Source: Bacteroidota bacterium
GTDB taxonomy: Bacteria; Bacteroidota; Bacteroidia; B-17B0; Aurantibacillaceae
Direction of reading: 5' to 3'
NCBI GenBank assembly: GCA_029237825.1
Contig: JAQZBQ010000009.1
Span: forward strand, 62,001-126,000
DNA: 64,000 nt
This document shows positions 16,887 to 39,540 of the stretch, piece after piece. The translations under genes were made by a program, and so were the position numbers. A model generated the notes under the pieces. That model had not been told where the DNA came from and searched no databases. It saw only the letters and a program-made list of their open reading frames with translations. Each line of letters opens with the position of its first letter. The first letter of the stretch is position 1.

Positions 16887-16958
<72 letters not shown>

Positions 16959-16968
16959 CTTATTAAAT

Positions 16969-17065: not shown

Positions 17066-18199
17066 ATGGAAAACTATCAACTAGCAAAAATTGTGGATCG
17101 CGGCGGCGACTTAACCGCCCGCTGGTTCGTAGAATACAAGTATAAACACCCTGAAACGGGCAAATTTGTTAAGTTTCGGGAGTGGATCAGTGCAAAAATA
17201 ACTACCCGTTCCGGTAGATACCAGAAAGCCACAGCCCTCAAAGCATCCATTAACTTAAAATTAAAAAGTGGTTTTTCACCATTTGAGGCTGTAGAGCGAC
17301 AAAGAACCCTAAAAGACTGTATTACCTCAGTTTTGGAATTAAAAGCCGTTACATGCGGTAAACGTGCCAAAATTACCTACAAAAGTATAGGCGGGTTGTT
17401 CCTTAATTGGATTGAAAAAAACAATCTTTCTACGGTTAAGCCAGAAGAGATTAACAAAGCACTTGCGCAAAGGTTTTTGGATTATCTGTTAATTGACAAG
17501 AAAGTCAGTAACCGAACCTATAATAATTACCTGGTTTGTTTACGAACCATTTTTGAAGTTTTACTGGAACGCGAGGCCATAGATTTTAACGTATGGAAAA
17601 AATTAAAAAAGCTTAAGGTTAAAGAAGCTGATATAACGGCATTTACAGCAGCTGAATGTAAAAGGGTTGCCGAAATAGTACCGGTAGTGAATTACCAGCT
17701 ATATGCGGCTGCAATGCTTATTTACTATTGTTATTTAAGACCGGCAGAAATTGTGCGCCTAAAAATTCAGGATTTGGATTTAGTAAAAGGACAAATATTA
17801 GTGAAAGCCAGCCAAAGTAAAAATGGCTGTAATCAGGTTGTTATCATGCATCAGGAATTAATAAAGATCATTGAAAAAATGAACTTGAACGCATTTCCGT
17901 CGGATTACTATGTGTTTGGCACATCCAAACTTTTAAAGCCGGGACCTCGCGAAATAGCGCCTACCCGTATTGCTGATGCTTGGCGCGAACAATTCAAAAA
18001 ACCATATGGCTTTACAAAGAACATTTACGATCTTAAACCTACCGGTAATGGCGCGGCACTGGATAGCGGCATTGATACTCGCGATATTCAATTGCAAAAC
18101 CGACATCATTCCCTTGACCAAACGCAGCGTTACTTGAATAAGTTTCGAAACAAGCCCGGGAATGTTTTTCGTGAAAAAATGCCGGTATTTAATCAATAA
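17066..18199 (+). CDS. int: tyrosine site-specific integrase
   Basis: 377 residues: an N-terminal arm-binding region, a SAM-like core-binding domain (about 100-190, with NRTYNNYLVCLRTIFEVLL) and a C-terminal catalytic domain. Catalytic residues visible are Arg in YLRPAEIVRL, Lys in ASQSKNG, His in RHHSLDQTQ and the nucleophile Tyr in QRYLNKF. Relatives in Bacteroidota usually read K-H-T-G at the box II position; here it is LKPTGN, so the His is replaced by Pro. It recombines the element with the 3' end of tRNA-fMet. It is read away from the tRNA and is monocistronic or co-transcribed with the PEGA gene. Confidence 0.9.
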   Translation: MENYQLAKIVDRGGDLTARWFVEYKYKHPETGKFVKFREWISAKITTRSGRYQKATALKASINLKLKSGFSPFEAVERQRTLKDCITSVLELKAVTCGKRAKITYKSIGGLFLNWIEKNNLSTVKPEEINKALAQRFLDYLLIDKKVSNRTYNNYLVCLRTIFEVLLEREAIDFNVWKKLKKLKVKEADITAFTAAECKRVAEIVPVVNYQLYAAAMLIYYCYLRPAEIVRLKIQDLDLVKGQILVKASQSKNGCNQVVIMHQELIKIIEKMNLNAFPSDYYVFGTSKLLKPGPREIAPTRIADAWREQFKKPYGFTKNIYDLKPTGNGAALDSGIDTRDIQLQNRHHSLDQTQRYLNKFRNKPGNVFREKMPVFNQ

Positions 18200-19025: not shown

Positions 19026-19817
19026 TTATAGGCTACTTCGCAAAACAGAAACTATTTTTTTGTCGTAGCCCTTTTTCAAGATTTTTGATTTAGGGTAGTA
19101 TATGCCCTCGGTGTATGTTCGAGGAAAAAAAGCGTTGTATGCTGGTGCGTGCGCATGCACGTAGTGTGTAATAGCTGCCTCAAACAAACGGGCAAATACT
19201 TCAATATTGCTTTTCAGGTAAGGTGTGCGCAGGTGTTTTGTGTAGCTTTCATCACTTTTAACCTCAATAACCGGCGCAGAAAAGCCGGTAGTAATTTGGT
19301 TTTTCCAGTCCGGGTTTTTGTTTTCGCTGGCAAAATTGTGCATTAATGTTTTGTCTTTCATCCGGCCCTGATAGAAGTCTATAAAGTGGCCGTACTCATG
19401 CACAAAAGAGTTTTCACCTTTCATAAAGTCGCTGTAATCATCTTTGCGGCCTCGCGATAAATTAATGATGTTTTCGCGCGGACTAAAATGCGCTAACACA
19501 TTACCACCTATACCGTGCGCACCAATCGATAAAATAAGTATGCCTGCGCCGATATCATTGCTGCCTTTTAGCTTTGCAAGGCATTCTATCTGCTTAAAGG
19601 TTTTAAAACAGTAAAAGTACCTTTCTTCTTGGCTCATATAATTACCAAAAACAACACCTTTGAGGTGGTATTTTTTAATGAGTGCCTCAAGATCAATTTG
19701 TTTAATTTCGGTTTCCTTAAATTTTTTACGCAGAAATTTTTCAAAACGTGGACTTAAATCCAGTTCCCTTTCTGCGCGACCTTTGGAAACGGTTGTATCA
19801 ACTAGCTTTTGAATCAT
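19026..19817 (-). CDS. LPD1-like putative zinc metallopeptidase
   Basis: About 263 residues. A centre segment AHFSPRENIINLSRGRKD followed by SFVHEYGHFIDF carries the HExxH zinc motif in the setting of the LPD1 domain, a module of phage polyvalent proteins that travel with viral DNA. Here it is stand-alone and lies last in the late operon. No signal peptide is seen. The start MIQKLVD at 19817 is preferred over 19871, because the longer form overlaps the whole end of a hidden membrane-protein gene. Possible roles are virion-borne protease during entry or processing of a host protein; both are inference. Confidence 0.6.
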   Translation of the reverse strand: MIQKLVDTTVSKGRAERELDLSPRFEKFLRKKFKETEIKQIDLEALIKKYHLKGVVFGNYMSQEERYFYCFKTFKQIECLAKLKGSNDIGAGILILSIGAHGIGGNVLAHFSPRENIINLSRGRKDDYSDFMKGENSFVHEYGHFIDFYQGRMKDKTLMHNFASENKNPDWKNQITTGFSAPVIEVKSDESYTKHLRTPYLKSNIEVFARLFEAAITHYVHAHAPAYNAFFPRTYTEGIYYPKSKILKKGYDKKIVSVLRSSL

Positions 19818-19941
19818 CCTTTGAAGTGAAATAGAGGTAAAGGGATAAACCGATAATTGCCACTGCGACAATTAACGGCATAATAAAATTGCTTTCCGAC
19901 TCAGAATAGTGAGCAATAATGTTTGGGATCGGTGGTTTCAT
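19798..19941 (-). CDS. single-span small membrane protein (47 aa)
   Basis: Encodes a 47-residue protein starting MKPPIPNIIAHYSESES and continuing into one membrane span (IMPLIVAVAIIGLSLYLYF) and a short charged tail. It overlaps the spanin-like gene by 4 bases (ATGA) and the LPD1-type gene by 20, as in tightly packed viral operons. It fits the run of small membrane proteins of this virus. Exact role unknown. Confidence 0.6.
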   Translation of the reverse strand: MKPPIPNIIAHYSESESNFIMPLIVAVAIIGLSLYLYFTSKDDSKAS

Positions 19942-20471
19942 GGTTTAAGCCATTTAAGAATAATAACTACAGTCATTTCCAGTAAAAGAATTGCGGATAT
20001 GCCAGCCCAAAACATTACCCAGTTGTATTTTGTGGTAACGTTAAATTTTTGGTATTGTACCGGCACAGTTACTTTATATTTTTTTGGGGGTTGGTGCAGC
20101 TGGTAATAGAAAACTCCTTTATGTTGCCAAAACTTACAAAAGCCCCCATTGTTTAAAGCTACTTTAAACGTGTCCTGCAAGCAGTTTCTATCCAGTATGT
20201 ATGTTTTTATTTCGCTGGTTAATTTAACGCGCCTAATGCTGTCTAAAAAATCCTTATAGGTATCTATTAACTCAGTAAGGCCGCTAACATTGTTTGAAGC
20301 TTTAAAAGAAGTATCTAATGTATAGCCAGGTGCGCTAACAATTTTTGAACTGTAGATTGTATCGGTTTTGGCTAATTCGGGATGGTTTTTAATTAACCGG
20401 TTAAGCCGCTTTTGCGGGTTGCAAGCGGTTAACAGGAATATAATAAAGAAGAAAAAAAATAGTCTAAGCAT
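19938..20471 (-). CDS. candidate unimolecular spanin (lipoprotein with C-terminal span)
   Basis: 177 residues: an N-terminal lipoprotein signal with lipobox LLTAC (Cys17), a periplasmic stretch with helical character, and one C-terminal membrane span (about 150-172, MFWAGISAILLLEMTVVII). A lipid anchor in the outer membrane plus a span in the inner membrane is the topology of u-spanins such as T1 gp11, which fuse the two membranes in the last step of lysis. It follows the holin gene with 8 bases of overlap, which supports this reading. Sequence similarity to known spanins cannot be claimed. Confidence 0.6.
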   Translation of the reverse strand: MLRLFFFFFIIFLLTACNPQKRLNRLIKNHPELAKTDTIYSSKIVSAPGYTLDTSFKASNNVSGLTELIDTYKDFLDSIRRVKLTSEIKTYILDRNCLQDTFKVALNNGGFCKFWQHKGVFYYQLHQPPKKYKVTVPVQYQKFNVTTKYNWVMFWAGISAILLLEMTVVIILKWLKP

Positions 20472-20862
20472 CTTTGCGATACATTTTGTTTTTAAGAAAC
20501 TCCCAAATTGGCATGCCTAAAATTTCGCCCATGTTTTCTGCAACGCTTTTAAACTCGGTAACAGCCAAAAAGCCCGCAGCCAATTGTGTAATTTTTACCG
20601 GTAAAAAATCCACGTTTAAAAACTGCGTATCTAAAATATGGCTGCAAATAACCAGTAAGAAGTATAGCAGCGTTTTTGTGGCCGTTTGGCTCATTGCGCG
20701 GCTTGTTATTGGCTTGCTTGTTTTGCGGGCTTTAATGATCCCGGTAACGAGATCACAGGCAATAAAAACACCTAACCATAATAATGTTGAAAGTATAGGC
20801 GTAAATACAACAGTTATATATAAGAACAGCTTTGCGCTGTATTTGTAAAGGAATGATTTCAT
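20464..20862 (-). CDS. phage holin (holin_4-like)
   Basis: 132 residues with three hydrophobic stretches. The FIACDLVTGIIKARKTSKPITS segment and the end AVTEFKSVAENMGEILGMP match the general pattern of the phage_holin_4 family (D-x-x-T-G-x-x-x-A near the first span; E-x-x-S-x-x-E-N near the end). It makes holes in the inner membrane to time lysis. The start at 20862 is chosen over 20898, because it gives a TAATG stop-start overlap with the upstream gene. Confidence 0.8.
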   Translation of the reverse strand: MKSFLYKYSAKLFLYITVVFTPILSTLLWLGVFIACDLVTGIIKARKTSKPITSRAMSQTATKTLLYFLLVICSHILDTQFLNVDFLPVKITQLAAGFLAVTEFKSVAENMGEILGMPIWEFLKNKMYRKDA

Positions 20863-21818
20863 TAGCGAACGATTTTTAAATATCCTAACGAATCCCAAAC
20901 CGCGCCCACAACGGCTGGCTTTGTCGTAGCTATTGTTGAAATTTTTAACCGTCCTTCTACTAAATCCAAGTATTCACCACCGCCCGTTACTATATTAATG
21001 CCATAACTACCACTCTCCCAAATTCTACTAAAACCGCTCGCATGAAAAAGAATTTGTCCGACACCAATAGAGGGTGCCCATAATCCTGCCGCGTAAATTT
21101 CACCGGGATATGTTCGGGAGTCTCCCGTTAAATTTATGCTGGTATTAGTAAATACACTGCCTCTAATATCAACACGCCTATCATCCCTAATAGTTAAAAT
21201 ATCCTGTCCTAAACTATCTTGGAATTTTGCCGCATATGTTGCGCTTGTTGTACCGCTACCAACAACGTTTAATTTCGCGCTTGGCGAGATTGTGCCTATT
21301 CCAACGCGCGCGGTTGTGTGTGCTACAAATAAAGCATCTATATTATTACTCATTAAACGATAATCACTATTATTGTAAGGAGCGGAATTGAATAACCTTA
21401 TAGTATGATTGCTATACATGTCATTGTATGTGCTTCCGAAAGCGCCACAAGACATTTGCTGTTTTAAGGAACCTTGATAATTTAAATTAAACGTAGGTGC
21501 GTCACCATTTAAAGCAAACGTGGCAGAAGTTGTTGTGTTTGTGCCGACTGTAAAAACAGGATTATTTGCCGATGTATTAAATAAAAGCGGTGAACTTCCT
21601 AAACTAGAACCACTAACAGCATACGGAATATAATTAGGAGTTAACGAACCAGATAAACCCGATGTAACGTTTGCCCAACTTAACTTTGAACCGTTAGTTT
21701 TTAAATACTGCCCGGCCTTACCGCTTTGTGATGGGAGTTTTACAGGCTGGCTTGTTTGTGCGAAATTAACGGAAACGCAAAAAAGCGACATCGCTAAAAG
21801 TGAGTATATTTTTTTCAT
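20862..21818 (-). CDS. fibre/spike-like protein with Sec signal peptide
   Basis: 318 residues. The N-terminus is a clear signal peptide (cleavage after NFAQ). The body is Ser/Thr/Asn/Gly-rich and repetitive, with GQYLKTNGSKLSWANV, VGIGTISPSAKLNVVG and ILTIRDDRRVDIRG, as in phage tail fibres and other trimeric adhesins. It has no T9SS sorting tail. A signal peptide on a virion fibre is unusual; it could be a surface protein of the lysogen, or a spike assembled outside the cytoplasm. It lies between a structural-type gene and the holin. Confidence 0.6.
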   Translation of the reverse strand: MKKIYSLLAMSLFCVSVNFAQTSQPVKLPSQSGKAGQYLKTNGSKLSWANVTSGLSGSLTPNYIPYAVSGSSLGSSPLLFNTSANNPVFTVGTNTTTSATFALNGDAPTFNLNYQGSLKQQMSCGAFGSTYNDMYSNHTIRLFNSAPYNNSDYRLMSNNIDALFVAHTTARVGIGTISPSAKLNVVGSGTTSATYAAKFQDSLGQDILTIRDDRRVDIRGSVFTNTSINLTGDSRTYPGEIYAAGLWAPSIGVGQILFHASGFSRIWESGSYGINIVTGGGEYLDLVEGRLKISTIATTKPAVVGAVWDSLGYLKIVR

Positions 21819-21828
21819 TGGTTTTTGT

Positions 21829-22188
21829 TTAAGCGCGTTTTATGTATGTAACAGTTAGCTCAGTGGCAAGGTTTGTAGCACTAAATTTTATATAAGAAAA
21901 AAAATTGATTGAACCGCCAAAAGGTAAATTATCATCAACATCAATTACCTGGCGGTTTGCAGGATTATCTAAAAGATCATGTGTAAAATATCCCGGCTCT
22001 GTACCACTGTTTGAAACGCAAAAAGAAAGAACATCAGTGAGTTCAAGTTCGCCATCGTTTACCGTGGTTTTATAAGCCTTTGTGTCAACACCTCCAACAC
22101 CAATACCCTGCCCGGGTGTTATGCTGGTGAGTGCTGCAATAAGATCAGTTACCATCTGCCTGATATCTTCGCTTTTGTAAGGTCCCAT
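21829..22188 (-). CDS. hypothetical structural-type protein (119 aa)
   Basis: Not recognised. It has no signal peptide or span and is rich in beta-forming residues in the second half (GGSINFFSYIKFSATNLATELTVTYIK), with a Gly-rich turn (GQGIGVGGVD). Position between the endolysin and the fibre-like gene suggests a virion part, for instance a vertex or fibre-base protein; that is inference. It is 10 bases upstream of the fibre gene. Confidence 0.5.
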   Translation of the reverse strand: MGPYKSEDIRQMVTDLIAALTSITPGQGIGVGGVDTKAYKTTVNDGELELTDVLSFCVSNSGTEPGYFTHDLLDNPANRQVIDVDDNLPFGGSINFFSYIKFSATNLATELTVTYIKRA

Positions 22189-22194
22189 TGTTGC

Positions 22195-22263
22195 TTATTT
22201 ATCTTTGTAAAACTGTGTGTAAATTGTTCCTACTAATACGATTAGCAGTAACAGGATAAACAC
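22195..22263 (-). CDS. transmembrane mini-ORF in the -1 frame of the endolysin (possible slippage extension)
   Basis: Immediately after the endolysin's poly-A run (eleven T on the plus strand at 22272-22282), the -1 frame reads IKVVFILLLLIVLVGTIYTQ and five more residues to a stop at 22195. It can be made alone from a GTG at 22263 (22 residues) or fused to the endolysin by slippage on the A11 tract, giving it a C-terminal membrane anchor. No ATG is present in this frame. The membrane-span character in just this frame makes chance less likely. Confidence 0.45.
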   Translation of the reverse strand: MFILLLLIVLVGTIYTQFYKDK

Positions 22264-22751
22264 TACTTTAATTTTTTTTTTTGCTCTGCCTTTACATCAA
22301 AGGCTTCTAAATTGTAAGTTTTAACCATGTTAATTAACTTACTGCTGTAGCTGGGATCGGTGGCATACCCGTACTGTTTTAGCTCGTTAGCCCAGTTCAC
22401 ATAATTGGTATCATTAAACAAGCCCGCATAACGTTTGTTCTTAATTAAAAACAATGCGTGATCATTAAAGCTGCCTTGTGGCGTTTTGTACTTCCGGAAC
22501 GGTTGAGGCAGTGAATAGTATGCGCTGCCATTCCATTCTTTAGTATAAGCAGTGTAATTTTCTGCATGCCATTCATCGTTTGGATGATCTTTAATGCCGA
22601 AAAAATTAAAAGCGTTTTTTGTTAAGCTGCTTTCGCCCCATCCACTTTCTAAAGCGGCCTGCGCTAAAGTTATAGATGCTGGTACACCATATTTCACATG
22701 GGTATCAATAGCATAAGGTGCGTACTTTGCAAAAAACTCTTGTTGCTTCAT
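22263..22751 (-). CDS. glucosaminidase endolysin (FlgJ/LytG-like, GH73)
   Basis: 162 residues, one domain. Segments VPASITLAQAALESGWGESS (catalytic Glu in ALESGWG), NAFNFFGIK and FRKYKTPQGSFNDHALFL are hallmarks of the GH73 N-acetylglucosaminidase family, which cuts the glycan strand of peptidoglycan. There is no signal peptide, so release depends on the holin, or on a membrane anchor gained by slippage at its 3' end. The start overlaps the preceding stop as TAATG. The last codons are CAA AAA AAA AAA TTA, an A11 slippery run. Confidence 0.85.
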   Translation of the reverse strand: MKQQEFFAKYAPYAIDTHVKYGVPASITLAQAALESGWGESSLTKNAFNFFGIKDHPNDEWHAENYTAYTKEWNGSAYYSLPQPFRKYKTPQGSFNDHALFLIKNKRYAGLFNDTNYVNWANELKQYGYATDPSYSSKLINMVKTYNLEAFDVKAEQKKKLK

Positions 22752-23359
22752 TACTTTTTTATGTATTTGTGATAAGCAACTACACCACCAATAAACAGAA
22801 CCGCAGTAACAACAATAAGCGTAACAATTTGAACGCTTTTTTGTGTGAACAACTTACCTTTTACAGTTTCGGTTTCTAAAGCTGCTTTTTGTGTTGCAGC
22901 CTGCGATTGAGAGTTGATACTTGCAACCTCTGCATTTGAATTTGCAATTGATACCTGGGCTGCGGCTGTAGCCTCTGCAATTTTAGCGGCCAATAAATCT
23001 TGCTCTACTGTGCTTAACTTGCTTTTTTCAGTTGTTAAAGCTGTTTTGGCGGCTTCATACGCTGCGCGTGCTGCGTTTAATTCATTGGCTGCAATTTGAG
23101 TAGCAGGCCTTACCGTGTTTCTAAGTAAGTCGCTTAACTTATCAGCGTTGTAAGCATCGCCATCGTTAATTTTTTCCATGCGTTGGCGGTCTATCTCCGC
23201 TTCATACGCAACCGCTGCATTAAATTTTTGTTCCTTTAAAACTACTGCAGCATAGGTGCGCGTAACTGCATCGGATAAGGTAGATATGCTTGCGGTTAAA
23301 CTAACAACAAGCGCATCCAGTGCGCTTGAACTTGTTGTGGTTGTAGTATTGTCTGCCAT
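22751..23359 (-). CDS. coiled-coil protein with C-terminal membrane span
   Basis: 202 residues: a Thr/Ser-rich start, a long Ala-rich coiled coil (about 20-170) and one C-terminal span (about 175-195, VQIVTLIVVTAVLFIGGVV) followed by a basic tail. Not recognised as a known family. In this operon it would be a virion membrane protein with a rod-like domain on one side, possibly linking capsid and membrane; this is inference. Confidence 0.6.
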   Translation of the reverse strand: MADNTTTTTSSSALDALVVSLTASISTLSDAVTRTYAAVVLKEQKFNAAVAYEAEIDRQRMEKINDGDAYNADKLSDLLRNTVRPATQIAANELNAARAAYEAAKTALTTEKSKLSTVEQDLLAAKIAEATAAAQVSIANSNAEVASINSQSQAATQKAALETETVKGKLFTQKSVQIVTLIVVTAVLFIGGVVAYHKYIKK

Positions 23360-23364
23360 TGTGT

Positions 23365-23517
23365 TTAGCTGAATTTTTTAAAAAAAAGAGTGGTGAAAAT
23401 GATGATGGTGATAACAGCGAGCGAGAGGCCAATAATGGTTTCTGTACTAATACCTACCTCTGCTTTAACGCTTTCGTTACCGCTTAATACATCAAATAAT
23501 GTAGATTTAGTTTCCAT
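23365..23517 (-). CDS. single-span small membrane protein (50 aa)
   Basis: A 50-residue protein starting METKSTLFDVLSGNESV, with one span (TIIGLSLAVITIIIFTTLFF) and a short basic end KKFS. It lies 5 bases upstream of the coiled-coil membrane gene and 6 after the previous one, in the same direction. Spacing and composition match the neighbouring genes. Confidence 0.6.
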   Translation of the reverse strand: METKSTLFDVLSGNESVKAEVGISTETIIGLSLAVITIIIFTTLFFKKFS

Positions 23518-23523
23518 TGCTGT

Positions 23524-23763
23524 TTACTCTGCTACTGCGCCGCCTAATCCTACAATTGCGCTTGGCTCCTCTTCAACAAGTGTTGTTTCAGGGCTTGAAA
23601 CCACTGTGTTTGTTACTGCGCCTGCAAGTAATGCGGCCTCTTTTAAACGTTTTTCCTCTGCTTTTTTATCCATTTTTGGTTTTAGATAAAAGAAGTAGAA
23701 CCCGCCGCCACCTATTAGGATTGCGGCTGAAACTGATAGTAAAATGATGGTTTTGGTTTTCAT
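23524..23763 (-). CDS. single-span membrane protein (79 aa)
   Basis: 79 residues: MKTKTIILLSVSAAILIGGG begins one N-terminal span, followed by a basic stretch (KPKMDKKAEEKRLKE) and an acidic, Ala/Val-rich tail. Not cleaved by an obvious signal peptidase site. One of a series of N-terminally anchored small proteins in this operon. Confidence 0.65.
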   Translation of the reverse strand: MKTKTIILLSVSAAILIGGGGFYFFYLKPKMDKKAEEKRLKEAALLAGAVTNTVVSSPETTLVEEEPSAIVGLGGAVAE

Positions 23764-23777
23764 GGTGTTGATTTAGA

Positions 23778-23981
23778 TTATTCGATAATTTCAGCTGCAA
23801 CCATATCCACTTTTTGCATGGCTTGTTTTACGGTTTCCAGTACTGGTTTTGATAAAATTGGTGTTGGTGCTGGTAAAGTTGTTTTTACTGATTTTTTACC
23901 AACGCTGCGGCCAAAAAAGAAAGCGCCTGCGATTGCTGATAATACCACAATTCCTAAGATTATTTTTGTTGAAGTTTTCAT
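23778..23981 (-). CDS. single-span membrane protein (67 aa)
   Basis: 67 residues: one N-terminal span (TKIILGIVVLSAIAGAFFFG) and a basic-then-amphipathic tail. Same layout as the gene at 23524-23763, although the sequences after the span differ. Probable virion membrane protein. Confidence 0.65.
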   Translation of the reverse strand: MKTSTKIILGIVVLSAIAGAFFFGRSVGKKSVKTTLPAPTPILSKPVLETVKQAMQKVDMVAAEIIE

Positions 23982-23991
23982 TGGTTTGTTT

Positions 23992-24417
23992 TTATATAGT
24001 TGTAAAAGTTGGCGCGCTGGTTAATACAGGCACAAAAGTTGAGTTTTGAATAATTGTTGTAAATCCGGTTTCTGTTACCGGGTAATAGGCAGTTCCCATC
24101 AATGCCAAAAGCATGGATTTTGTTTTTTCGCCAAAACTGTTATCAACTACCAACGGTAAAATTTTGTTACCGGCTTTTTCGTTGATCTTGTTTAAAGCAA
24201 TTTGCAGGGTTTTTACATTTTCGCCACGACTACCAACCTTTAATGGTAAAGTATCGTTTGCAACCGGTGCTGCATCCTGTATATTAAAAAACTCATCCGC
24301 TGTTTTGTCTGTAGACTGGCTGGCAGGCTTACTGGTAAATTTCCAAACAAGGAAAAGAACCAAGGCTATTGCGGCCATGATGAGAATATTTTTTTTAGCT
24401 TTTGGTGTGAGTTTCAT
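23992..24417 (-). CDS. membrane-anchored peptidoglycan-binding protein
   Basis: 141 residues. One N-terminal span (about 10-28, NILIMAAIALVLFLVWKF), a linker, then a PG_binding_1-like domain (LKVGSRGENVKTLQIALN, VVDNSFGEKTKSML), the three-helix module that holds cell-wall hydrolases on peptidoglycan. There is no catalytic domain. In a virion membrane it could help the genome-delivery tube to cross the cell wall; the glucosaminidase is encoded two kilobases away. Confident about the domain, not the role. Confidence 0.7.
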   Translation of the reverse strand: MKLTPKAKKNILIMAAIALVLFLVWKFTSKPASQSTDKTADEFFNIQDAAPVANDTLPLKVGSRGENVKTLQIALNKINEKAGNKILPLVVDNSFGEKTKSMLLALMGTAYYPVTETGFTTIIQNSTFVPVLTSAPTFTTI

Positions 24418-24418
24418 T

Positions 24419-24913
24419 TTAAAATTTGTAATCGATTGAACGTGCTTTTAACTGATCGTTGATATACTCATCCCTTTCGGCTGGGTTAGGCATATCGGCT
24501 GTAATCCACTGCACAAGGTTGAACGGCTTAATGTTCCACATGAATAGTTTATCATCGGTATAGTCGCGGACGCCAAACGATTTAATGAGTTGCAATACAT
24601 CTGCTTTATTCTGCATGTATTTAAACACATCGCTTACGCTATCCTCATCCGTACCTTGGCCACTCATTGCCTGTTCCAGTGTATCTGCAAACGCGGCAAA
24701 CTGGTTAGGCGTGTAAGTAGTTACCACACCCGATTGCGCCAATTGGTTTAATTCTCCCTGGGCGGTATTTACCGTGTTAACGTTTGAATCCTTTTTTGCC
24801 AATAAACCTGAAATAGCATTGTAAATAAGATACAGCAACACACATCCTAAAAGGATCAGTAAAATTTTACCAATTGGCGGTGCATCGTTGTATATTTTAA
24901 CCAGTGTTTTCAA
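24419..24913 (-). CDS. membrane protein with annexin-like GxGTDE segment
   Basis: 164 residues if it starts at the TTG at 24913, which lies 4 bases after the stop of the upstream gene; the longer ATG frame would overlap that gene by 101 bases. After MKTLVKIYNDAPPIGK comes one span (ILLILLGCVLLYLIYNAI). The later segment LEQAMSGQGTDEDSVSDVF resembles the first half of an annexin repeat (A-M-x-G-x-G-T-D-E), the type II calcium-binding loop. Known annexins bind acidic lipid through calcium. A lipid-binding role in a membrane-containing virion is attractive but is inference from a short motif. Confidence 0.6.
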   Translation of the reverse strand: MKTLVKIYNDAPPIGKILLILLGCVLLYLIYNAISGLLAKKDSNVNTVNTAQGELNQLAQSGVVTTYTPNQFAAFADTLEQAMSGQGTDEDSVSDVFKYMQNKADVLQLIKSFGVRDYTDDKLFMWNIKPFNLVQWITADMPNPAERDEYINDQLKARSIDYKF

Positions 24914-24917
24914 TTGC

Positions 24918-25178
24918 TTAGTTTCTTGGTGATAGGTTTGCTGTTGTAGTTGGTTCGCTAACAGAGGCAGATGATGAACCGCCGCCACTAACTTTACCGA
25001 ATAAAGCACCAAACGCATCGGTGTTAAATAAGGCCGCTAATCCAAAATTGCTACTGTTAGTTGTGGTAACATTTGCGTTTGGTGTTGCAGAGCCACCGCC
25101 ACCGCCTTTTGTAAAGAAGTAGAGTGCAGCTAAACCGCCGCCGATTAAAAGAATTATTACTATTGGGTTTAGTTTCAT
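24918..25178 (-). CDS. single-span Gly-rich membrane protein (86 aa)
   Basis: 86 residues. An N-terminal span (NPIVIILLIGGGLAALYFFT) is followed by a five-Gly run and a Ser/Thr/Asn-rich, low-complexity tail ending LSPRN. Probable virion membrane protein; no recognised domain. Confidence 0.6.
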   Translation of the reverse strand: MKLNPIVIILLIGGGLAALYFFTKGGGGGSATPNANVTTTNSSNFGLAALFNTDAFGALFGKVSGGGSSSASVSEPTTTANLSPRN

Positions 25179-25190
25179 TGCGTTAAAATT

Positions 25191-25514
25191 TTAGTTGATA
25201 TAACCGAAAGCTTTTGAGTACATAACCGCCGCGTGTACAAGTTCTTGCTCGGGTGTTGTACCGTTCATTTTAGCGGCCTGCATAACTTGTTGGCGCAAAT
25301 TGGTTTCGCTTAAAATGTGTTCTACACCATCTTTAATGATCTTGTATACAGCCGGGTTTTTATCTGTATCGTATTTTGCAGCCTCTTCATTGATATAGTC
25401 TTTTATATCCTGTTGGTTGAACTGGAAAAAAGTTGTATAAGTGAAGTATGCCGCGGCAGATAAAACCAGCACTATAGCTGAAATGATTAAAAGTGTTTTT
25501 ATAAATGGTTTCAT
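25191..25514 (-). CDS. single-span membrane protein with helical domain (107 aa)
   Basis: 107 residues: one N-terminal span (about 6-28) and an all-helical soluble domain (QQDIKDYINEEAAKYD and onward). It is not recognised. Same orientation and spacing as its neighbours. Confidence 0.6.
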   Translation of the reverse strand: MKPFIKTLLIISAIVLVLSAAAYFTYTTFFQFNQQDIKDYINEEAAKYDTDKNPAVYKIIKDGVEHILSETNLRQQVMQAAKMNGTTPEQELVHAAVMYSKAFGYIN

Positions 25515-25520
25515 TGGATT

Positions 25521-25706
25521 TTATTTTTTTGGCCACAGCAATACCGCTGCTATTAATGTTATTACTGCTAACCCAGCGAAAAGCATGGTGTTGTTTTTTG
25601 CTGGTGTGGTTGTGGTTGTGCTGGTGTTTGTACCTCCAATAATTGGATTTAAAAACCCTGCTATACCGCTTCCTATTTGGCTTGCGCCCGCTGCAAAATC
25701 GTTCAT
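25521..25706 (-). CDS. single-span membrane protein (61 aa)
   Basis: 61 residues: a Gly/Ala-rich start (GASQIGSGIAGFLNPIIGG), a Thr-rich linker and a C-terminal span (MLFAGLAVITLIAAVLLW) ending in two Lys. Opposite polarity to most others in the row, which have the span at the N-terminus. Confidence 0.6.
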   Translation of the reverse strand: MNDFAAGASQIGSGIAGFLNPIIGGTNTSTTTTTPAKNNTMLFAGLAVITLIAAVLLWPKK

Positions 25707-25709
25707 TGG

Positions 25710-26039
25710 TTATTGAATTGATTTGATTGCTTTAATAAGCTTTGGGCTTAGCCCGGCAGGATTTAAAGCAAATGAGTTAAGAATGGTTTGGATTTCTTCG
25801 AGGTTGTTACGCTCTAAAATAATTTGGCAGATGCGCTGTATCTTTTTTGGATCAGGTGACCAGCCGAGTTCGTGAGAGTAACCAAGTTTGTGGCGCAAAA
25901 TGTGGTTCATCGATCCGGGATTGTTCGCAATAAGAAAAGCGAAAAAGGCCGCACGATCATTTGTAATTAAGTATGCGAACTCATCCGGCGTTACTGGTTG
26001 TTTTGCTTGTACCCGCGCTGCGATTTCTTTTAAATTCAT
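25710..26039 (-). CDS. hypothetical soluble helical protein (109 aa)
   Basis: 109 residues, all-helical, no span. Helices such as TPDEFAYLITNDRAAFFAFL are visible but no family is recognised. It is the first gene after the capsid-gene terminator and the only soluble product before a row of membrane proteins. A scaffold or a minor virion protein is possible. Confidence 0.5.
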   Translation of the reverse strand: MNLKEIAARVQAKQPVTPDEFAYLITNDRAAFFAFLIANNPGSMNHILRHKLGYSHELGWSPDPKKIQRICQIILERNNLEEIQTILNSFALNPAGLSPKLIKAIKSIQ

Positions 26040-26053
26040 CGGATTAATGTTTT

Positions 26054-26089
26054 AAAAAAACGCTTGCCTGACTACAAGCAAGCGTTTTT
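26054..26089 (-). terminator. strong terminator directly after the candidate capsid gene
   Basis: A perfect stem AAAAACGCTTGC / GCAAGCGTTTTT with a ten-base loop, 24 bases past the stop at 26113. On the minus strand it ends in T residues. A terminator between the candidate capsid gene and the membrane-protein row would make the capsid mRNA the most abundant, with the rest by read-through. Confidence 0.75.
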
Positions 26090-26112
26090 ATAATGTGATT
26101 TTTATGGATTGA

Positions 26113-26715
26113 TTAAGCCCAGCTGATGTTAGCTGTTACTGTGAACCCTGCAGGCACTACCCAAGACAATTGAGTTACACCGTTTACCCAGAAATCTACA
26201 GCGATGGTTAAAACACCTTGTTGAACCTGTGTGTTACGGATAGCTTCTGAAAGGTCTAATACTTCCGGTAATTCACGCCCACCAGTTGCAGAGTAAGAAA
26301 GAATTGCAAATTCTAAACCCTCTAAAGCTGATAAAGACTGATTACCATCAGCATCTACCGCAGTAAATGTGATTGATTTTCCACGCAAACCACGGCCTGC
26401 GTTGGCAATGTTCACATACTTATTGATGTTTTTGCCTCCAAATCCATCATTAAAAGTTGGAACTAAACCGGTGGAAACGTTAAAGTCTGCCGTGTTGAAA
26501 GCATAAACTGTGTTTTCTGCATTCGCATCATTAGCAGCATTACGACCACGGGAAGTAATTAACGTGCTTTTAGGTTTACCAAATTTTTCAATTGTTGCGT
26601 CTTGTGGGTATTGGTATACACCTGACTTGTTATTGATAGCATCAGCTACAGAAACAGAAATTTTTTCGATGCTTTGTGCTGGTAAGTTACTTAAGTTGCG
26701 AGTAGTTGTGATCAT
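26113..26715 (-). CDS. candidate major capsid protein (200 aa, beta-rich)
   Basis: 200 residues from the ATG at 26715 (the frame is open to 26802, but the extra residues are not protein-like and cover the repeat block). It has no span or Cys, and consists of Ser/Thr/Ala/Val-rich beta strands such as GKSITFTAVDADG, LEFAILSYSATGG and QLSWVVPAGFTVTANISWA. It is flanked by terminators on both sides, has its own upstream repeat block, and sits two genes from the packaging-type ATPase. A product of this size would suit a single jelly roll. The capsid call is by position, composition and exclusion, not by recognised homology. Confidence 0.5.
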   Translation of the reverse strand: MITTTRNLSNLPAQSIEKISVSVADAINNKSGVYQYPQDATIEKFGKPKSTLITSRGRNAANDANAENTVYAFNTADFNVSTGLVPTFNDGFGGKNINKYVNIANAGRGLRGKSITFTAVDADGNQSLSALEGLEFAILSYSATGGRELPEVLDLSEAIRNTQVQQGVLTIAVDFWVNGVTQLSWVVPAGFTVTANISWA

Positions 26716-26763: not shown

Positions 26764-26814
26764 CTTTAACGCTTCTTTACAGTGCTTAACGCTACTTAAC
26801 ACTATTAAACACTA
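26764..26814. repeat. tandem 10-bp repeats upstream of the capsid gene
   Basis: Three consecutive 10-mers at 26785-26814 read CTTAACGCTA, CTTAACACTA and TTAAACACTA, and a fourth related copy CTTTAACGCT lies at 26764. They fill the space between the small HTH gene's terminator and the capsid ATG. Ten-base spacing places copies on one face of the helix, as for an activator or repressor site. Confidence 0.6.
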
Positions 26815-26834
26815 TTGTAATTTTGATAAAAAAA

Positions 26835-26858
26835 AGGAGCGTTTTTTATGGCGCTCCT
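26835..26858 (-). terminator. terminator overlapping the end of the small HTH gene
   Basis: Stem AGGAGCG / CGCTCCT with a ten-base loop and, on the minus strand, a run of eight T. It includes the stop codon at 26846-26848 and ends the packaging operon just before the capsid promoter region. Confidence 0.7.
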
Positions 26859-27028
26859 AAGTGTTCAACTATATATTCTAATTCTTTTGGACTGTAAACC
26901 TTTGCAAACTTCCTTACCTTTCCGGATGTTACTAGTGTTTTAAGGTTAGCCCACCATGTAGTGCGGCTTATTTCGTAGAGTAGCCGCAATTCCTTTGCGC
27001 TATTTGGCGGTTTAAAGTTATCCTGCAT
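26846..27028 (-). CDS. small HTH DNA-binding protein (60 aa)
   Basis: 60 residues with a helix-turn-helix pattern (SAKELRLLYEISRTTWWANL then VRKFAKVYSPKELEYI), similar in form to small winged-helix/AlpA-like regulators of Bacteroidota. Its start overlaps the ATPase stop as TAATG. Because it is encoded right before the capsid gene's repeat block, it could be the late regulator that binds there; this is inference. Confidence 0.55.
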   Translation of the reverse strand: MQDNFKPPNSAKELRLLYEISRTTWWANLKTLVTSGKVRKFAKVYSPKELEYIVEHLGAP

Positions 27029-27639
27029 TAGCGTATTTCGTCAATGGTTGATATGGTTATGTGTTTAAATCGGTCGGTGCTAGCCTGTAGCGTGTTGAAT
27101 GCTTTCATTACTTTATCAAAGCAGGCGCTTAAACTTTCCTTTCGTACAAGCGGTGTATCGAGTGTTTTACAAAGTTCGATGTAATCAATTTTTCGATACA
27201 GGTCCAGCGGTGTTTCACCAAAGGAGTGGTACATAAAGCAGATATCAATGTTTTGTTGCTTACTGTTACCCATTAAACGGTTCAACTCTTTGCAGATGCT
27301 TTTTTCACTATGTTTACGTGCATCCTCGAAAATTAGAAATGTGTTCCAGTGGTTGTTACTATCTGTAAACCAGCGGCAGAAACTATTTATATCCTCCGGA
27401 TCAATCAGGATGCGGGCTACACCAGTTTTAAAGTTTTTAAAGCTTTCCATTGTAAGGATAGGAACGTCCCTGTACGCCGGGTGATCATCAGTATCTACAA
27501 TTAAAACCTTAATGCCTTTTTTTAGGTAAATGTCAATAAGGCCACGAAGTTTTAATTTTGCGTCGCCTTTTACAATCGTGGTTTTGCCTGTACCGCGCGC
27601 GCCAATGATGGTAAAAATTTTATTAAACCGTTCTATCAT
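27028..27639 (-). CDS. P-loop ATPase, putative genome-packaging type
   Basis: 203 residues: Walker A GARGTGKTT at 13-21, Walker B FLIFEDA at 101-107, and a following FMYHSF strand where sensor residues are expected. Size and placement beside the candidate capsid gene fit the small packaging ATPases (FtsK-HerA fold) of membrane-containing jelly-roll viruses. It has no C-terminal span, unlike Zot proteins of filamentous phages, and no nuclease domain, unlike terminases. The fold name is inference from motifs. Confidence 0.65.
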   Translation of the reverse strand: MIERFNKIFTIIGARGTGKTTIVKGDAKLKLRGLIDIYLKKGIKVLIVDTDDHPAYRDVPILTMESFKNFKTGVARILIDPEDINSFCRWFTDSNNHWNTFLIFEDARKHSEKSICKELNRLMGNSKQQNIDICFMYHSFGETPLDLYRKIDYIELCKTLDTPLVRKESLSACFDKVMKAFNTLQASTDRFKHITISTIDEIR

Positions 27640-31735: not shown

Positions 31736-32473
31736 TTAAAATTTACAGTAATTACAAGTGTTTTCTTGGCCTAAATCTCGACCAAAAGTTGTGTAGAATG
31801 TTGCCTCATCTCTTCCCCAATAGCGAGTAAGCTCTGAACTTAATTTCATCGCAAGCATAAAATATTTAGGATAATATTTTTTCACAGCTAGAATATCTTC
31901 AGGATCCATATTCTTGCAGGGCAAACAATTATTGTGTTTAAACACACGATTACCATTTTCATCAAGTATTTTATAAATCTCAGGAAACCAGCCTATAAGT
32001 CTTTCTACAATTTGAAAACACCACTCATCGTTAAATTCTCCAATAGGATAAAGTTTTTGGAGCGAAAAAAGATCGACTGATATATTTTTTTTTTGCCGTT
32101 CCGACCGTCTCTTAAGTTCGTGCCTTACATATCCTACCAAATCTATTTTAATATCATTTTCAAAAGCATAAGCGTTGATTTCATCAATCTTGAGCCTTTT
32201 AGTACATGGTGAATTTGCAGGATGGGGAATTATCTTTTCTTTTCTGAAAAAGTCTAGTATGCTGTTTTTGGTAATTCTGACTTTTACAACTTCAAAATGT
32301 TTCCTGGCAAACCTAATTCCATCTGCTACAAATTGGAACGTGTCAGGCGAATGCTCTTTAAAATGAGCGTAGAATAAATGAACTTCTTTTGGCTTAACTG
32401 GCTGTTCTGAAAGCCAACACAAAACAGCCATACTGTTAATTCCACCCGAAAGCCCTATTAGTACTCTATCCAT
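31736..32473 (-). CDS. PP-loop ATPase of the PAPS-reductase / DndC-like type
   Basis: 245 residues. The PP-loop reads SGGINS (residues 9-14) where the family norm is SGGxDS, so the Asp is replaced by Asn. Cysteine pairs near the C-terminus (CLPCKN and CNYC) and CTKRLK resemble iron-sulfur or zinc ligands of sulfur-transfer enzymes such as TtcA and DndC. It probably activates a substrate by adenylation for sulfur transfer, on tRNA or viral DNA. Phages often carry such PAPS-reductase-like genes of unproven role. The Asn change may be tolerated or may alter activity. Confidence 0.7.
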   Translation of the reverse strand: MDRVLIGLSGGINSMAVLCWLSEQPVKPKEVHLFYAHFKEHSPDTFQFVADGIRFARKHFEVVKVRITKNSILDFFRKEKIIPHPANSPCTKRLKIDEINAYAFENDIKIDLVGYVRHELKRRSERQKKNISVDLFSLQKLYPIGEFNDEWCFQIVERLIGWFPEIYKILDENGNRVFKHNNCLPCKNMDPEDILAVKKYYPKYFMLAMKLSSELTRYWGRDEATFYTTFGRDLGQENTCNYCKF

Positions 32474-33252: not shown

Positions 33253-33396
33253 TTAAAATTTTTTAAGTAGTTTGTGCTTTGGCCATGTTTGCCAGTGCGT
33301 TTTATCCGTAACTAAATACCGGTTAAGCACTGCATCGTATATTAACCGCAAGCGCCCGGCTTTGGCTTTTTTGTATTGTTCGCAAAAGGTCTTCAT
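33253..33396 (-). CDS. small basic protein (47 aa)
   Basis: A 47-residue protein starting MKTFCEQYKKAKAGRLRLIY, strongly basic (KHKLLKKF at the end). Its start overlaps the helicase stop (ATGA), which supports translational coupling to the replication gene. A nucleic-acid-binding helper is possible. Confidence 0.55.
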   Translation of the reverse strand: MKTFCEQYKKAKAGRLRLIYDAVLNRYLVTDKTHWQTWPKHKLLKKF

Positions 33397-34706
33397 AATG
33401 TTGCTGCTACTTGGTTACTATCTGCATTCTGCGCGTTTATTTCGGCGGTTTCTTTTTCGTACACCGTCCAACCCCAGGTAATTTTGCCTTCTATCATTTT
33501 CTGCTTTTTATGAAAACCAGCTTTTGTTAGTGCTTCGCCCAATTTTTTAGCGCTTAACCTTAACTTGCTTTGCAGTTCGAGTTTTGATAAAATAATTGAG
33601 GTTGGTAAAAATTTGAGCCCGGTAACGCTGCCTGCGGGTGCAGAGGTGCTGAAATAGTATTGTAACAACTCCTCTTCCTGGCTTAACATTGCAAATTCAC
33701 TATTGCGCGCGTTCAGTTCGTCTATCTCTGCATCTTCAAACCAATAACGGAAACGCTGTTTAAATAAATGGTAAGCCTGCGCCCATACCAATTCCATATT
33801 TAAAGCCTGCGCCGCTTTTATATCGATGCTTTCAACCTCGAAAGGAAGAAAACGGCGGCTACCGGTTGGGTCATTTAAAAACTCATTACCGTTAACCGAT
33901 CCTGCAAAGTTTGCCGTGTGCGGGTATTCGGTAATAATAGGATCATAGGGCCTGCGATACTTTACGCTGTTAATGGTGATCAGGTTTTTCAATTCGTTTT
34001 CATCCTTTTTATGCAGCTGCTTTAACTGATCATCAATATTGATAATAAAGTATTCAGCTATCAGGGTTAAGCAATCTTTACTTTCAAGATTTAGTTTTCC
34101 GGTGTACAGGTAACTGGTTAATGTTTTCGGACAAAGGTTTTCGATCCAGGTTGTTTTAAATTTTCCCTGCCCACCGGTTAATACAAGCATGGTGTGGTTT
34201 GCGCATTTTTCATCAATGAAAACATTTGCAACACAAGCAATAAGCCACTTTTTTAAATACGTTTGCCAGTGATCAGCGTTTTTACATTTAACGGTGGCGC
34301 ACAGTTCGGCGATGTGATCTGTTACCTCATCCCACGGAAAAATATTTTTAAAATAGTCCTTAATTGGATTTATCGCCGGGGAAAACGAAGAGCAAAGTAT
34401 ATCCATTAAGCCATCCTTTGAAATAATTAATCCTGCGCCATCCAACGCACGTTTCATACTTAGGAGGGTGTATTTATCCATTGGTAAATAAGCGGCATCC
34501 TTAACGCCTTTTTGTCTGTATTCGGGCTTTTGCTTTATGGTGTTGTAGCGAAAATCATAAACGGCGTTAAGCCATTTTTCTACATCCTGGCTTTTGCTTC
34601 GCCTGCCTGTATCATCCGGGCGTGTATCAGGATTATCTAACAGTTCGCCGTTGGTGCTGAAATTATCAGGATTATTGGTTTCTTTTTTAGTTTTAGTTTT
34701 CGCCAT
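33393..34706 (-). CDS. VirE/VapE-type replication helicase (P-loop)
   Basis: 437 residues. Walker A GGQGKFKTT at 178-186 and a Walker B-type strand EYFIINIDDQL near 226, followed by NSVKYRRPYDPIITEYPHTA and NEFLNDPTGSRRFLPFE, define the virulence-associated E family, found in phages and islands as a replicative helicase, often fused to a primase. The N-terminus lacks a primase, so this is the helicase half only. It probably unwinds the element's origin. The C-terminal 90 residues look like a winged helix. Confidence 0.85.
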   Translation of the reverse strand: MAKTKTKKETNNPDNFSTNGELLDNPDTRPDDTGRRSKSQDVEKWLNAVYDFRYNTIKQKPEYRQKGVKDAAYLPMDKYTLLSMKRALDGAGLIISKDGLMDILCSSFSPAINPIKDYFKNIFPWDEVTDHIAELCATVKCKNADHWQTYLKKWLIACVANVFIDEKCANHTMLVLTGGQGKFKTTWIENLCPKTLTSYLYTGKLNLESKDCLTLIAEYFIINIDDQLKQLHKKDENELKNLITINSVKYRRPYDPIITEYPHTANFAGSVNGNEFLNDPTGSRRFLPFEVESIDIKAAQALNMELVWAQAYHLFKQRFRYWFEDAEIDELNARNSEFAMLSQEEELLQYYFSTSAPAGSVTGLKFLPTSIILSKLELQSKLRLSAKKLGEALTKAGFHKKQKMIEGKITWGWTVYEKETAEINAQNADSNQVAATL

Positions 34707-38083: not shown

Positions 38084-38098
38084 TCACTCTCCCGCTAC
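38084..38098 (+). repeat. attR core, 15-bp direct repeat
   Basis: TCACTCTCCCGCTAC, identical to 16945-16959. This is the displaced original 3' end of tRNA-fMet. Excision between the two copies would restore one tRNA and release a 21,139-bp circle. Confidence 0.85.
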
Positions 38099-38202: not shown

Positions 38203-39540
38203 TTAGCGAGATTTATCCAGTTTTTCCGAAATGTCATTAATTTTTATCTCTATTTCAGTTTTAAACTCTTGATACAGTTCCAAATCTAAATCATCAAATG
38301 CATATTTACGTTGCAACTTTTTTAAGTCATTTACTAGTCTTTCATGCTCTTTTTCTAACATTGGTTGTTCACTTTGTTTTTCATTCTCCAAGCATTCGTA
38401 GGTCAGTTTTAATTGGTTTAAAAAAGGGGTAAGGTATATTGAAGGTAATTCGTAGCATTTAAGAAAATCAGTGAATATTTGATGAGCACCTATTCCTTTT
38501 GAGCTCTTAGTTGTTTCGGCATTAATTGTTTTGTCCTTGCACTTCTGGCATTTATAGTAGTGTAAATTTTTTTTGTTAACTTCATATCCGGTCATTTTGC
38601 CTCCACATTCATCACAAAGAATAAATCCCATTAAAGGACGATCTGAATTTGATAATTCATTTTTATATCCATATCGATTGGATCTTAATAGATTTTGTAC
38701 ACTGAAAAATTCTTTGTCACTTACTATAGGCTCCCAATTTCCTTTTACTATTTTATCTCCCAATAGCGAGTTCACATTCACCCCGCAGTAAAACGGGTTA
38801 CGCCACATTTTACTCAGTTGTTGTTTGGTGACTTTTAAGCCAATTTTATCTAGATTAATTACTATTAAATTATCAGATACACCTTTTAATTTGTATTCCC
38901 ATGCTTTTCTTACCAATGGTGCATCAGGACTTTTTTCAATTCTTTGAGTGGGACTGTAAAAGCGATGATCCTTTACTCTTGGACCATAATGAACATATCC
39001 TACGGGTGTCCTTCCCAACGCATGACCATTCTCTAACATCTTAACCATACCAGGAATAGTTATCTTTAATCTATCTAAATTATCTCTTCTGGATTGAATC
39101 AGGCCTGTATAGATTTCAAGTTTACCTTCTTCGGTCATCGTATTTTTAGCTGATGATACTTCAATGATATGTACTCCTAGTTTCTCGACAAGCTCATGAG
39201 CTAATGTAATACCTCCGCCACCACTTCGTGAAAATCGTGAAATTGTATTTATGAGTATTGCAAATGGTTTTTTCCTTGCGCTTCGCACCTCATTAATCAA
39301 TTTCATAAACTCTTTTCTAGTGAAGTCACCACTAGCACTCTCATATGTTGACCCGAATGTCATTCCTAAAGTATATCCATTTTCATGCGCATATTTGTGT
39401 GCAGCGTCTTTTTGACTTTCAAGACTTCTGTTTAATTCCTGGTCTTTACTTGAAACTCTAGTGTATAGCCACAAAACTGGATTGAAAACCTCAACCTTTT
39501 TTACTTTCTTCGTAAACGATGCAAATTTATTTAAATTCAT
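38203..39540 (-). CDS. large serine recombinase (resolvase/invertase type)
   Basis: 445 residues. The N-terminal resolvase domain has LYTRVSSKDQ with the catalytic Ser30, and a later NTISRFSRSGGGG segment. Next are the Recombinase domain (GRTPVGYVHYGP, LSKMWRNPFYCGVN) and a zinc ribbon (CDECGGKMTGY, YKCQKCKD), then a coiled coil. It is a site-specific recombinase of a second element directly next to the prophage's attR. Its target sites cannot be located by eye. No transposase partner is visible. Confidence 0.85.
   Translation of the reverse strand: MNLNKFASFTKKVKKVEVFNPVLWLYTRVSSKDQELNRSLESQKDAAHKYAHENGYTLGMTFGSTYESASGDFTRKEFMKLINEVRSARKKPFAILINTISRFSRSGGGGITLAHELVEKLGVHIIEVSSAKNTMTEEGKLEIYTGLIQSRRDNLDRLKITIPGMVKMLENGHALGRTPVGYVHYGPRVKDHRFYSPTQRIEKSPDAPLVRKAWEYKLKGVSDNLIVINLDKIGLKVTKQQLSKMWRNPFYCGVNVNSLLGDKIVKGNWEPIVSDKEFFSVQNLLRSNRYGYKNELSNSDRPLMGFILCDECGGKMTGYEVNKKNLHYYKCQKCKDKTINAETTKSSKGIGAHQIFTDFLKCYELPSIYLTPFLNQLKLTYECLENEKQSEQPMLEKEHERLVNDLKKLQRKYAFDDLDLELYQEFKTEIEIKINDISEKLDKSR

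Follow-up and report, generated by a model that had tools for sequence, protein, structure and literature searches.

We analyzed a window of 64,000 nucleotides (the whole stretch of DNA considered here) from a Bacteroidota genome and found that the gene at 26113–26715 probably encodes a capsid protein of a prophage. For the reading that its product is a major capsid protein with one barrel, our estimate is about three in four. The capsid role is probable and the single barrel is predicted; both draw support from the folds modelled for two divergent proteins, from synteny with known modules of ATPase and capsid genes, and from the affinity of the nearby ATPase to that of the virus P23-77. The first-pass annotation had proposed a candidate capsid protein with a single rather than a double jelly roll. 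This evidence supports the proposal in part. The gene and its surroundings are as follows.

26113–26715, minus strand: candidate single-jelly-roll major capsid protein, 200 aa (predicted barrel at residues ~46–200; residues 1–45 of low confidence)
26055–26090 (approximate), minus strand: intrinsic terminator 3′ of the capsid gene (−21.9 kcal/mol, z −7.5)
26834–26859 (approximate), minus strand: upstream intrinsic terminator, after the ATPase/small-gene transcript (7-bp stem, then T8, z −3.0)
26766–26805, no strand assigned: pair of imperfect tandem 20-mers within the capsid-gene leader
26846–27028, minus strand: conserved small protein of 60 aa between the ATPase and capsid genes (homolog in locus L005, 5.6e-10)
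27028–27639, minus strand: packaging-type P-loop ATPase, 203 aa
27643–28269, minus strand: conserved 208-aa protein just upstream of the ATPase (homologs in L005, L006 and L007)
25710–26039, minus strand: 109-aa protein after the capsid gene, without family match

The open reading frame has 200 codons and a stop, as first described. An alternative GTG start lengthens it to 26802 (229 aa), and the similarity of its relatives is confined to the ATG version. It is a real gene, because relatives retain it at the same position. The protein contains no Cys and no membrane span (its top 19-residue hydropathy is 1.2), and hairpins lie on both sides of the gene; on these points the first-pass annotation was right. 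The repeats that it placed in the upstream region are present, although they are weak, only 75% identical, and may be due to chance. The ATPase gene, which it described as adjoining, is close by, but the 60-aa gene lies between them. Judged by eye, the 60-aa protein is possibly DNA-binding.

The gene is part of a 21.1 kb prophage, whose ends are marked by a 15-bp att repeat from tRNA-Met. The other features of this element are listed below.

16945–16959, plus strand: attL, the 3′ end of tRNA-Met, TCACTCTCCCGCTAC
38084–38098, plus strand: attR, exactly the same 15 bp
17066–18199, plus strand: tyrosine integrase (PF00589, 3.2e-11)
33393–34706, minus strand: VapE-like helicase-primase (PF05272, 1.2e-38)
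23365–25706, minus strand: cluster of small proteins, mostly with one membrane span each (25521–25706, 25191–25514, 24918–25178, 24419–25018, 23992–24417 with a peptidoglycan-binding-like part, 23778–23981, 23524–23763 and 23365–23517, all minus strand)
22751–23359, minus strand: 202-aa protein with a C-terminal membrane span, coiled-coil-like by eye
22263–22751, minus strand: glucosaminidase lysin (Pfam PF01832, 8.5e-38)
21829–22188, minus strand: 119-aa protein without family match; it looks beta-rich by eye and is a candidate for the vertex protein or a second capsid protein
20862–21818, minus strand: spike or fibre-like protein (weak PHROG tail-fibre match, 1.9e-4)
20464–20898, minus strand: holin (phrog_199, 7.5e-11)

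A repressor-like HTH gene is also carried. Among the 30 proteins of the element, we found no significant match to a terminase, portal, head (HK97-type capsid) or structural tail protein, and the element is thus set apart from the Caudoviricetes (HK97 capsid, portal, terminase, tail). The signals closest to tailed phages were an insignificant partial match of the ATPase to a terminase profile (E 0.042) and the weak tail-fibre-like match of the spike protein. The same 30 proteins gave no PHROG match to the Microviridae families (VP1-type capsid, small gene set). None of 20 congeneric genomes showed an att site that was both intact and empty; most of them have the tRNA with other flanks. Directly outside attR lies a serine recombinase gene (38203–39540), which is perhaps part of a second mobile element.

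The candidate capsid protein had no match in Pfam, PHROGs, NCBIfam, PDB sequences, 50,697 phage records or viral contigs, and none of the known capsid proteins could be linked to it by sequence. Our whole-genome search returned three sequence relatives: a 216-aa protein in genome G184 (locus L002, the same gene as in L007), a 248-aa protein in G027 (locus L003), and, in G056, a truncated protein (locus L004; L005 has the same gene). Wider genome searches gave no further close relatives. A search with the ATPase recovered nine contigs from Bacteroidota and two from IMG/VR, the latter being the only members found in scans of 2.9 million IMG/VR contigs. The nine Bacteroidota contigs come from Bacteroidales, Paludibacteraceae, Chitinophagales, Lishizhenia, Flavobacteriia, Brumimicrobium aurantiacum and Bacteroidetes MAGs. 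L013 (NZ_QURB01000002.1) belongs to the cultured isolate Brumimicrobium aurantiacum N62, and its element reaches the contig end.

Eleven other loci also encode the conserved ATPase (blastp 1e-78 to 1e-11). In all nine loci that extend far enough, a non-membrane protein of 182–332 aa is encoded downstream of it (149 aa in the truncated L005). The order in contigs of sufficient length is a protein of ~180–220 aa, the ATPase, in most cases a gene of 57–76 aa, and the 182–332 aa protein. One or more extra genes stand between the ATPase and candidate capsid genes in L008, L009, L011, L012, L013 and L027. After the capsid-position gene come small membrane proteins and then, in most loci, a lysin. 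The contigs L006 and L010 stop just past the small gene, before the expected capsid gene, which may be chance or an assembly break.

The capsid-position proteins fall into two sets. The window protein forms one clade with those of L007, L003 and L005, joined by BLAST at 1e-11 to 1e-7, and the second set consists of seven positional counterparts (L008, L009, L011, L012, L013, L026 and L027). The two sets were colinear in hhalign, with an NTQ motif aligned to a QFQ motif, at a P value of 0.088. Because this profile match is not significant, the equivalence of the two sets rests on position and fold. In L005 (7720–8169), similarity is kept over about the first 119 codons only and then the sequence changes, which suggests a decayed or rearranged copy.

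Replication genes differ among the members: VapE in the window and in L013 (3170–4357), a DUF5906 protein in L012 (3569–5857), a G2P-type rolling-circle Rep in L026 (4455–5594), and Rep_1 in L027 (5151–6839). Since the replication modules vary, what the members have in common is the structural module, a pattern to be expected of a virus lineage. Two other genes recur. A conserved protein of 280–312 aa, which contains an LPD1-like part and a zinc-peptidase-like motif (HEYGHF), is found in the window (19026–19871), L011 (861–1787) and L012 (2353–3291). PAPS-reductase-like genes occur in the window (31736–32473), in L026 (6072–6950) and as ORF 3 of P23-77 (L034, 1889–2656).

Common to the ATPase members are a Walker A containing RG-x-GKT, an acidic Walker B, and [DN]-[ST]-KQ-[KQ]-N-[IV]-D followed by H. 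Their profile gave 92% over 167 columns against the packaging ATPase of P23-77, 71% against that of PM2 and 14% against that of PRD1, and P-loop controls matched it at equal E-values through the P-loop alone. Because the P-loop alone can give such values, the class was judged by a P-loop-free test only. With the P-loop removed, P23-77 (0.0013, 113 columns), PM2 (0.021, 13 columns) and PRD1 (0.032, 59 columns) took ranks 1 to 3 of 20 P-loop proteins, and the other 17 scored 0.11 and worse. From its sequence, the ATPase is predicted to be of the FtsK-HerA packaging class, nearest to that of P23-77, and it would serve in packaging. One member matched Pox_A32 at 0.0005. The ATPase had no match among phages or plasmids, and a phylum-wide search gave, besides the window, only partial P-loop matches, mostly in longer proteins.

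We predicted the fold of the window protein with AlphaFold from an alignment of both sequence sets. The 182-aa protein of L026 was predicted with the second set only, without window-type sequences, and L003 was left out of structure prediction. The window model (pLDDT 58, pTM 0.56; residues 1–45 of low confidence) has strands at 50–56, 67–73, (84–86), 110–120, 135–141, 151–153, 168–177, 181–187 and 192–199, and helices at 97–105, 128–132 and 155–161. The L026 model (pLDDT 69.5, pTM 0.67) shows the same order of elements, with strands at 2–10, 16–20, 98–107, 116–123, 126–134, 148–159, 163–169 and 173–181 and helices at 84–96 and 136–141. At low to middling confidence, both models read as a single B-to-I eight-stranded barrel with an FG-loop helix, in agreement with the beta-rich character first noted. 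Such a helix is a described feature of bamfordvirus capsid protein barrels (PMC9719478).

In the VIA comparison, the nearest structures to the window model were the C-terminal barrels of P3 from PR772/PRD1 (Z 7.6–7.0; at best 7.6, 3.1 Å, 109 residues), about level with the nucleoplasmin-like domains of plant HDT proteins (Z 7.2), and the first 23 rows for the L026 model were all virus capsid entries (comoviruses, STIV, PRD1, STMV, PBCV-1 and a nanovirus; Z 6.0–5.1); all these values are below 8, a range where unrelated barrels and common arrangements score too. A Foldseek search of the window model against PDB gave no match at E < 0.001, and a BFVD search returned only generic beta domains, which are uninformative. 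Among one-barrel dsDNA-virus capsids, SPV1 alone stood in the top VIA rows and SH1 in the Foldseek list for the window model; that no others appear there carries no weight as evidence. The Z values alone prove no relationship. The finding of one topology in two separate models of diverged proteins is the stronger point. In the fold comparison that the first-pass annotation called for, the nearest structures were mostly virus capsid barrels.

The near-equal score of nucleoplasmin-like pentamers could also be explained if the protein were a penton, spike base or other minor capsid protein and the true major capsid protein were an unrecognized gene; pentons are single barrels too (PRD1 P31, 126 aa). 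We consider this quite unlikely. In known modules the major capsid gene holds this position after the ATPase, and no second non-membrane candidate keeps a constant position within the module.

The protein might instead be a shortened double jelly roll of the PhiCjT23 kind (239 aa), and some counterparts do reach 236–271 aa. FLiP and PhiCjT23, which infect Flavobacterium, resemble our element in having Bacteroidota hosts, temperate forms and small genomes with membrane proteins. However, they have a double barrel and ssDNA of 7.6–9.2 kb, whereas the window element has 21 kb and a VapE primase, and FLiP is without an ATPase (PMC5894146). The traits of Finnlakeviridae (double barrel, small ssDNA genome, no packaging ATPase) likewise differ from the ATPase, 21.1 kb and VapE found here. 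The modelled domain has ~155 residues and one barrel of eight main strands. Members of 182–203 aa are below the smallest known double barrel of 239 aa (PMC9719478), so the size argument of the first-pass annotation was correct. A double barrel is highly improbable.

Among known viruses, P23-77 (Matsushitaviridae, Helvetiavirae, Singelaviria) is similar in its ATPase class, where it is the best full-length match, in its bacterial host, in the single-barrel capsid (here predicted), and in the order of ATPase, small ORFs, capsid, small structural proteins and lysis. P23-77, PM2 and PRD1 have in common the order of ATPase, small ORF(s), capsid gene(s) and small structural proteins. PRD1 (a tectivirus) and PM2 (a corticovirus) share this module order and the ATPase type, and the predicted barrel is nearest to the P3 C-terminal barrel of PRD1, but their capsid proteins are two-barrelled (269–395 aa). 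SPV1 of the Portogloboviridae resembles our element in its one-barrel capsid gene, with a VIA match at Z 5.5, also below 8. However, SPV1 is archaeal and lacks a packaging ATPase (PMC8812541), so the packaging-type ATPase and Bacteroidota host place our element outside that family.

P23-77 differs from the window element, which is integrated at a tRNA, in its host (Thermus rather than Bacteroidota) and in its capsid proteins, which have no sequence similarity to ours. It also has two adjacent single-barrel capsid genes, a Singelaviria trait, whereas in the window, as in L007, L026, L027 and others, a single candidate lies near the ATPase. The candidate could be one of two such proteins, as in P23-77 and haloarchaeal sphaerolipoviruses, with a partner such as 21829–22188. 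The affinity of the ATPase speaks for this, and near the spike gene several members encode a further protein of beta-rich appearance. We nevertheless regard it as unlikely. The P23-77 pair is adjacent, but here the next genes encode a different-looking 109-aa protein and membrane proteins. The 119-aa candidate is also smaller than VP16 (173 aa), and its counterparts in other members match no known family.

A major capsid protein with one barrel is the reading that we prefer. The gene would then serve a temperate, tailless, probably membrane-containing icosahedral phage residing at tRNA-Met. Its product would have a flexible N-terminal arm followed by a single upright jelly roll (~155 residues) with eight strands and an FG-loop helix. 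We infer that its copies would form six-fold capsomers on a virus-modified membrane vesicle, which the cluster of single-span proteins may hold; the many single-span proteins are consistent with an internal lipid membrane. A different protein would close the vertex, with 21829–22188 and 20862–21818 as candidates. The neighboring ATPase would pack the DNA, and the particles would be released by the holin and glucosaminidase. A separate transcription unit between the two terminators would permit high late expression.

The first-pass annotation held that a single-jelly-roll capsid would be notable because of the Gram-negative host. This does not hold, as P23-77 infects Thermus, which is a diderm, and the Microviridae have a single jelly roll in Gram-negative hosts. 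A microvirus with such a shell is known from Rhodobacter (PMC11980548). What would be new is the combination of one barrel gene, a packaging ATPase, a temperate lifestyle and a Bacteroidota host. Among bacteria, Thermus has so far been the only known source of single-barrel dsDNA viruses of this type. In a 2025 taxonomy, the bacteriophages listed under Singelaviria all infect Thermus (PMC12366298; the realm is given in PMC12714852). No description of such a group was found in the literature searched, most subscription papers falling outside that search.

The element most likely belongs to a group of tailless Bacteroidota prophages about which little is known. We give even odds that the group is a new lineage, at family level or higher, of temperate tailless Bacteroidota phages with one single-barrel shell gene, a packaging ATPase and swappable replication modules (VapE or rolling-circle Rep). 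Such a lineage would lie between SPV1-like viruses, with one barrel but no ATPase, and P23-77-like viruses, with two barrels as well as an ATPase. The group is testable, because a cultured host exists in strain N62, and the recovery of just two members from IMG/VR points to a blind spot. If this is true, Singelaviria would be widened to Bacteroidota, which is among the commonest phyla, and the group would bear directly on the unsettled origins of one-barrel, two-gene and double-barrel shells (PMC8812541).
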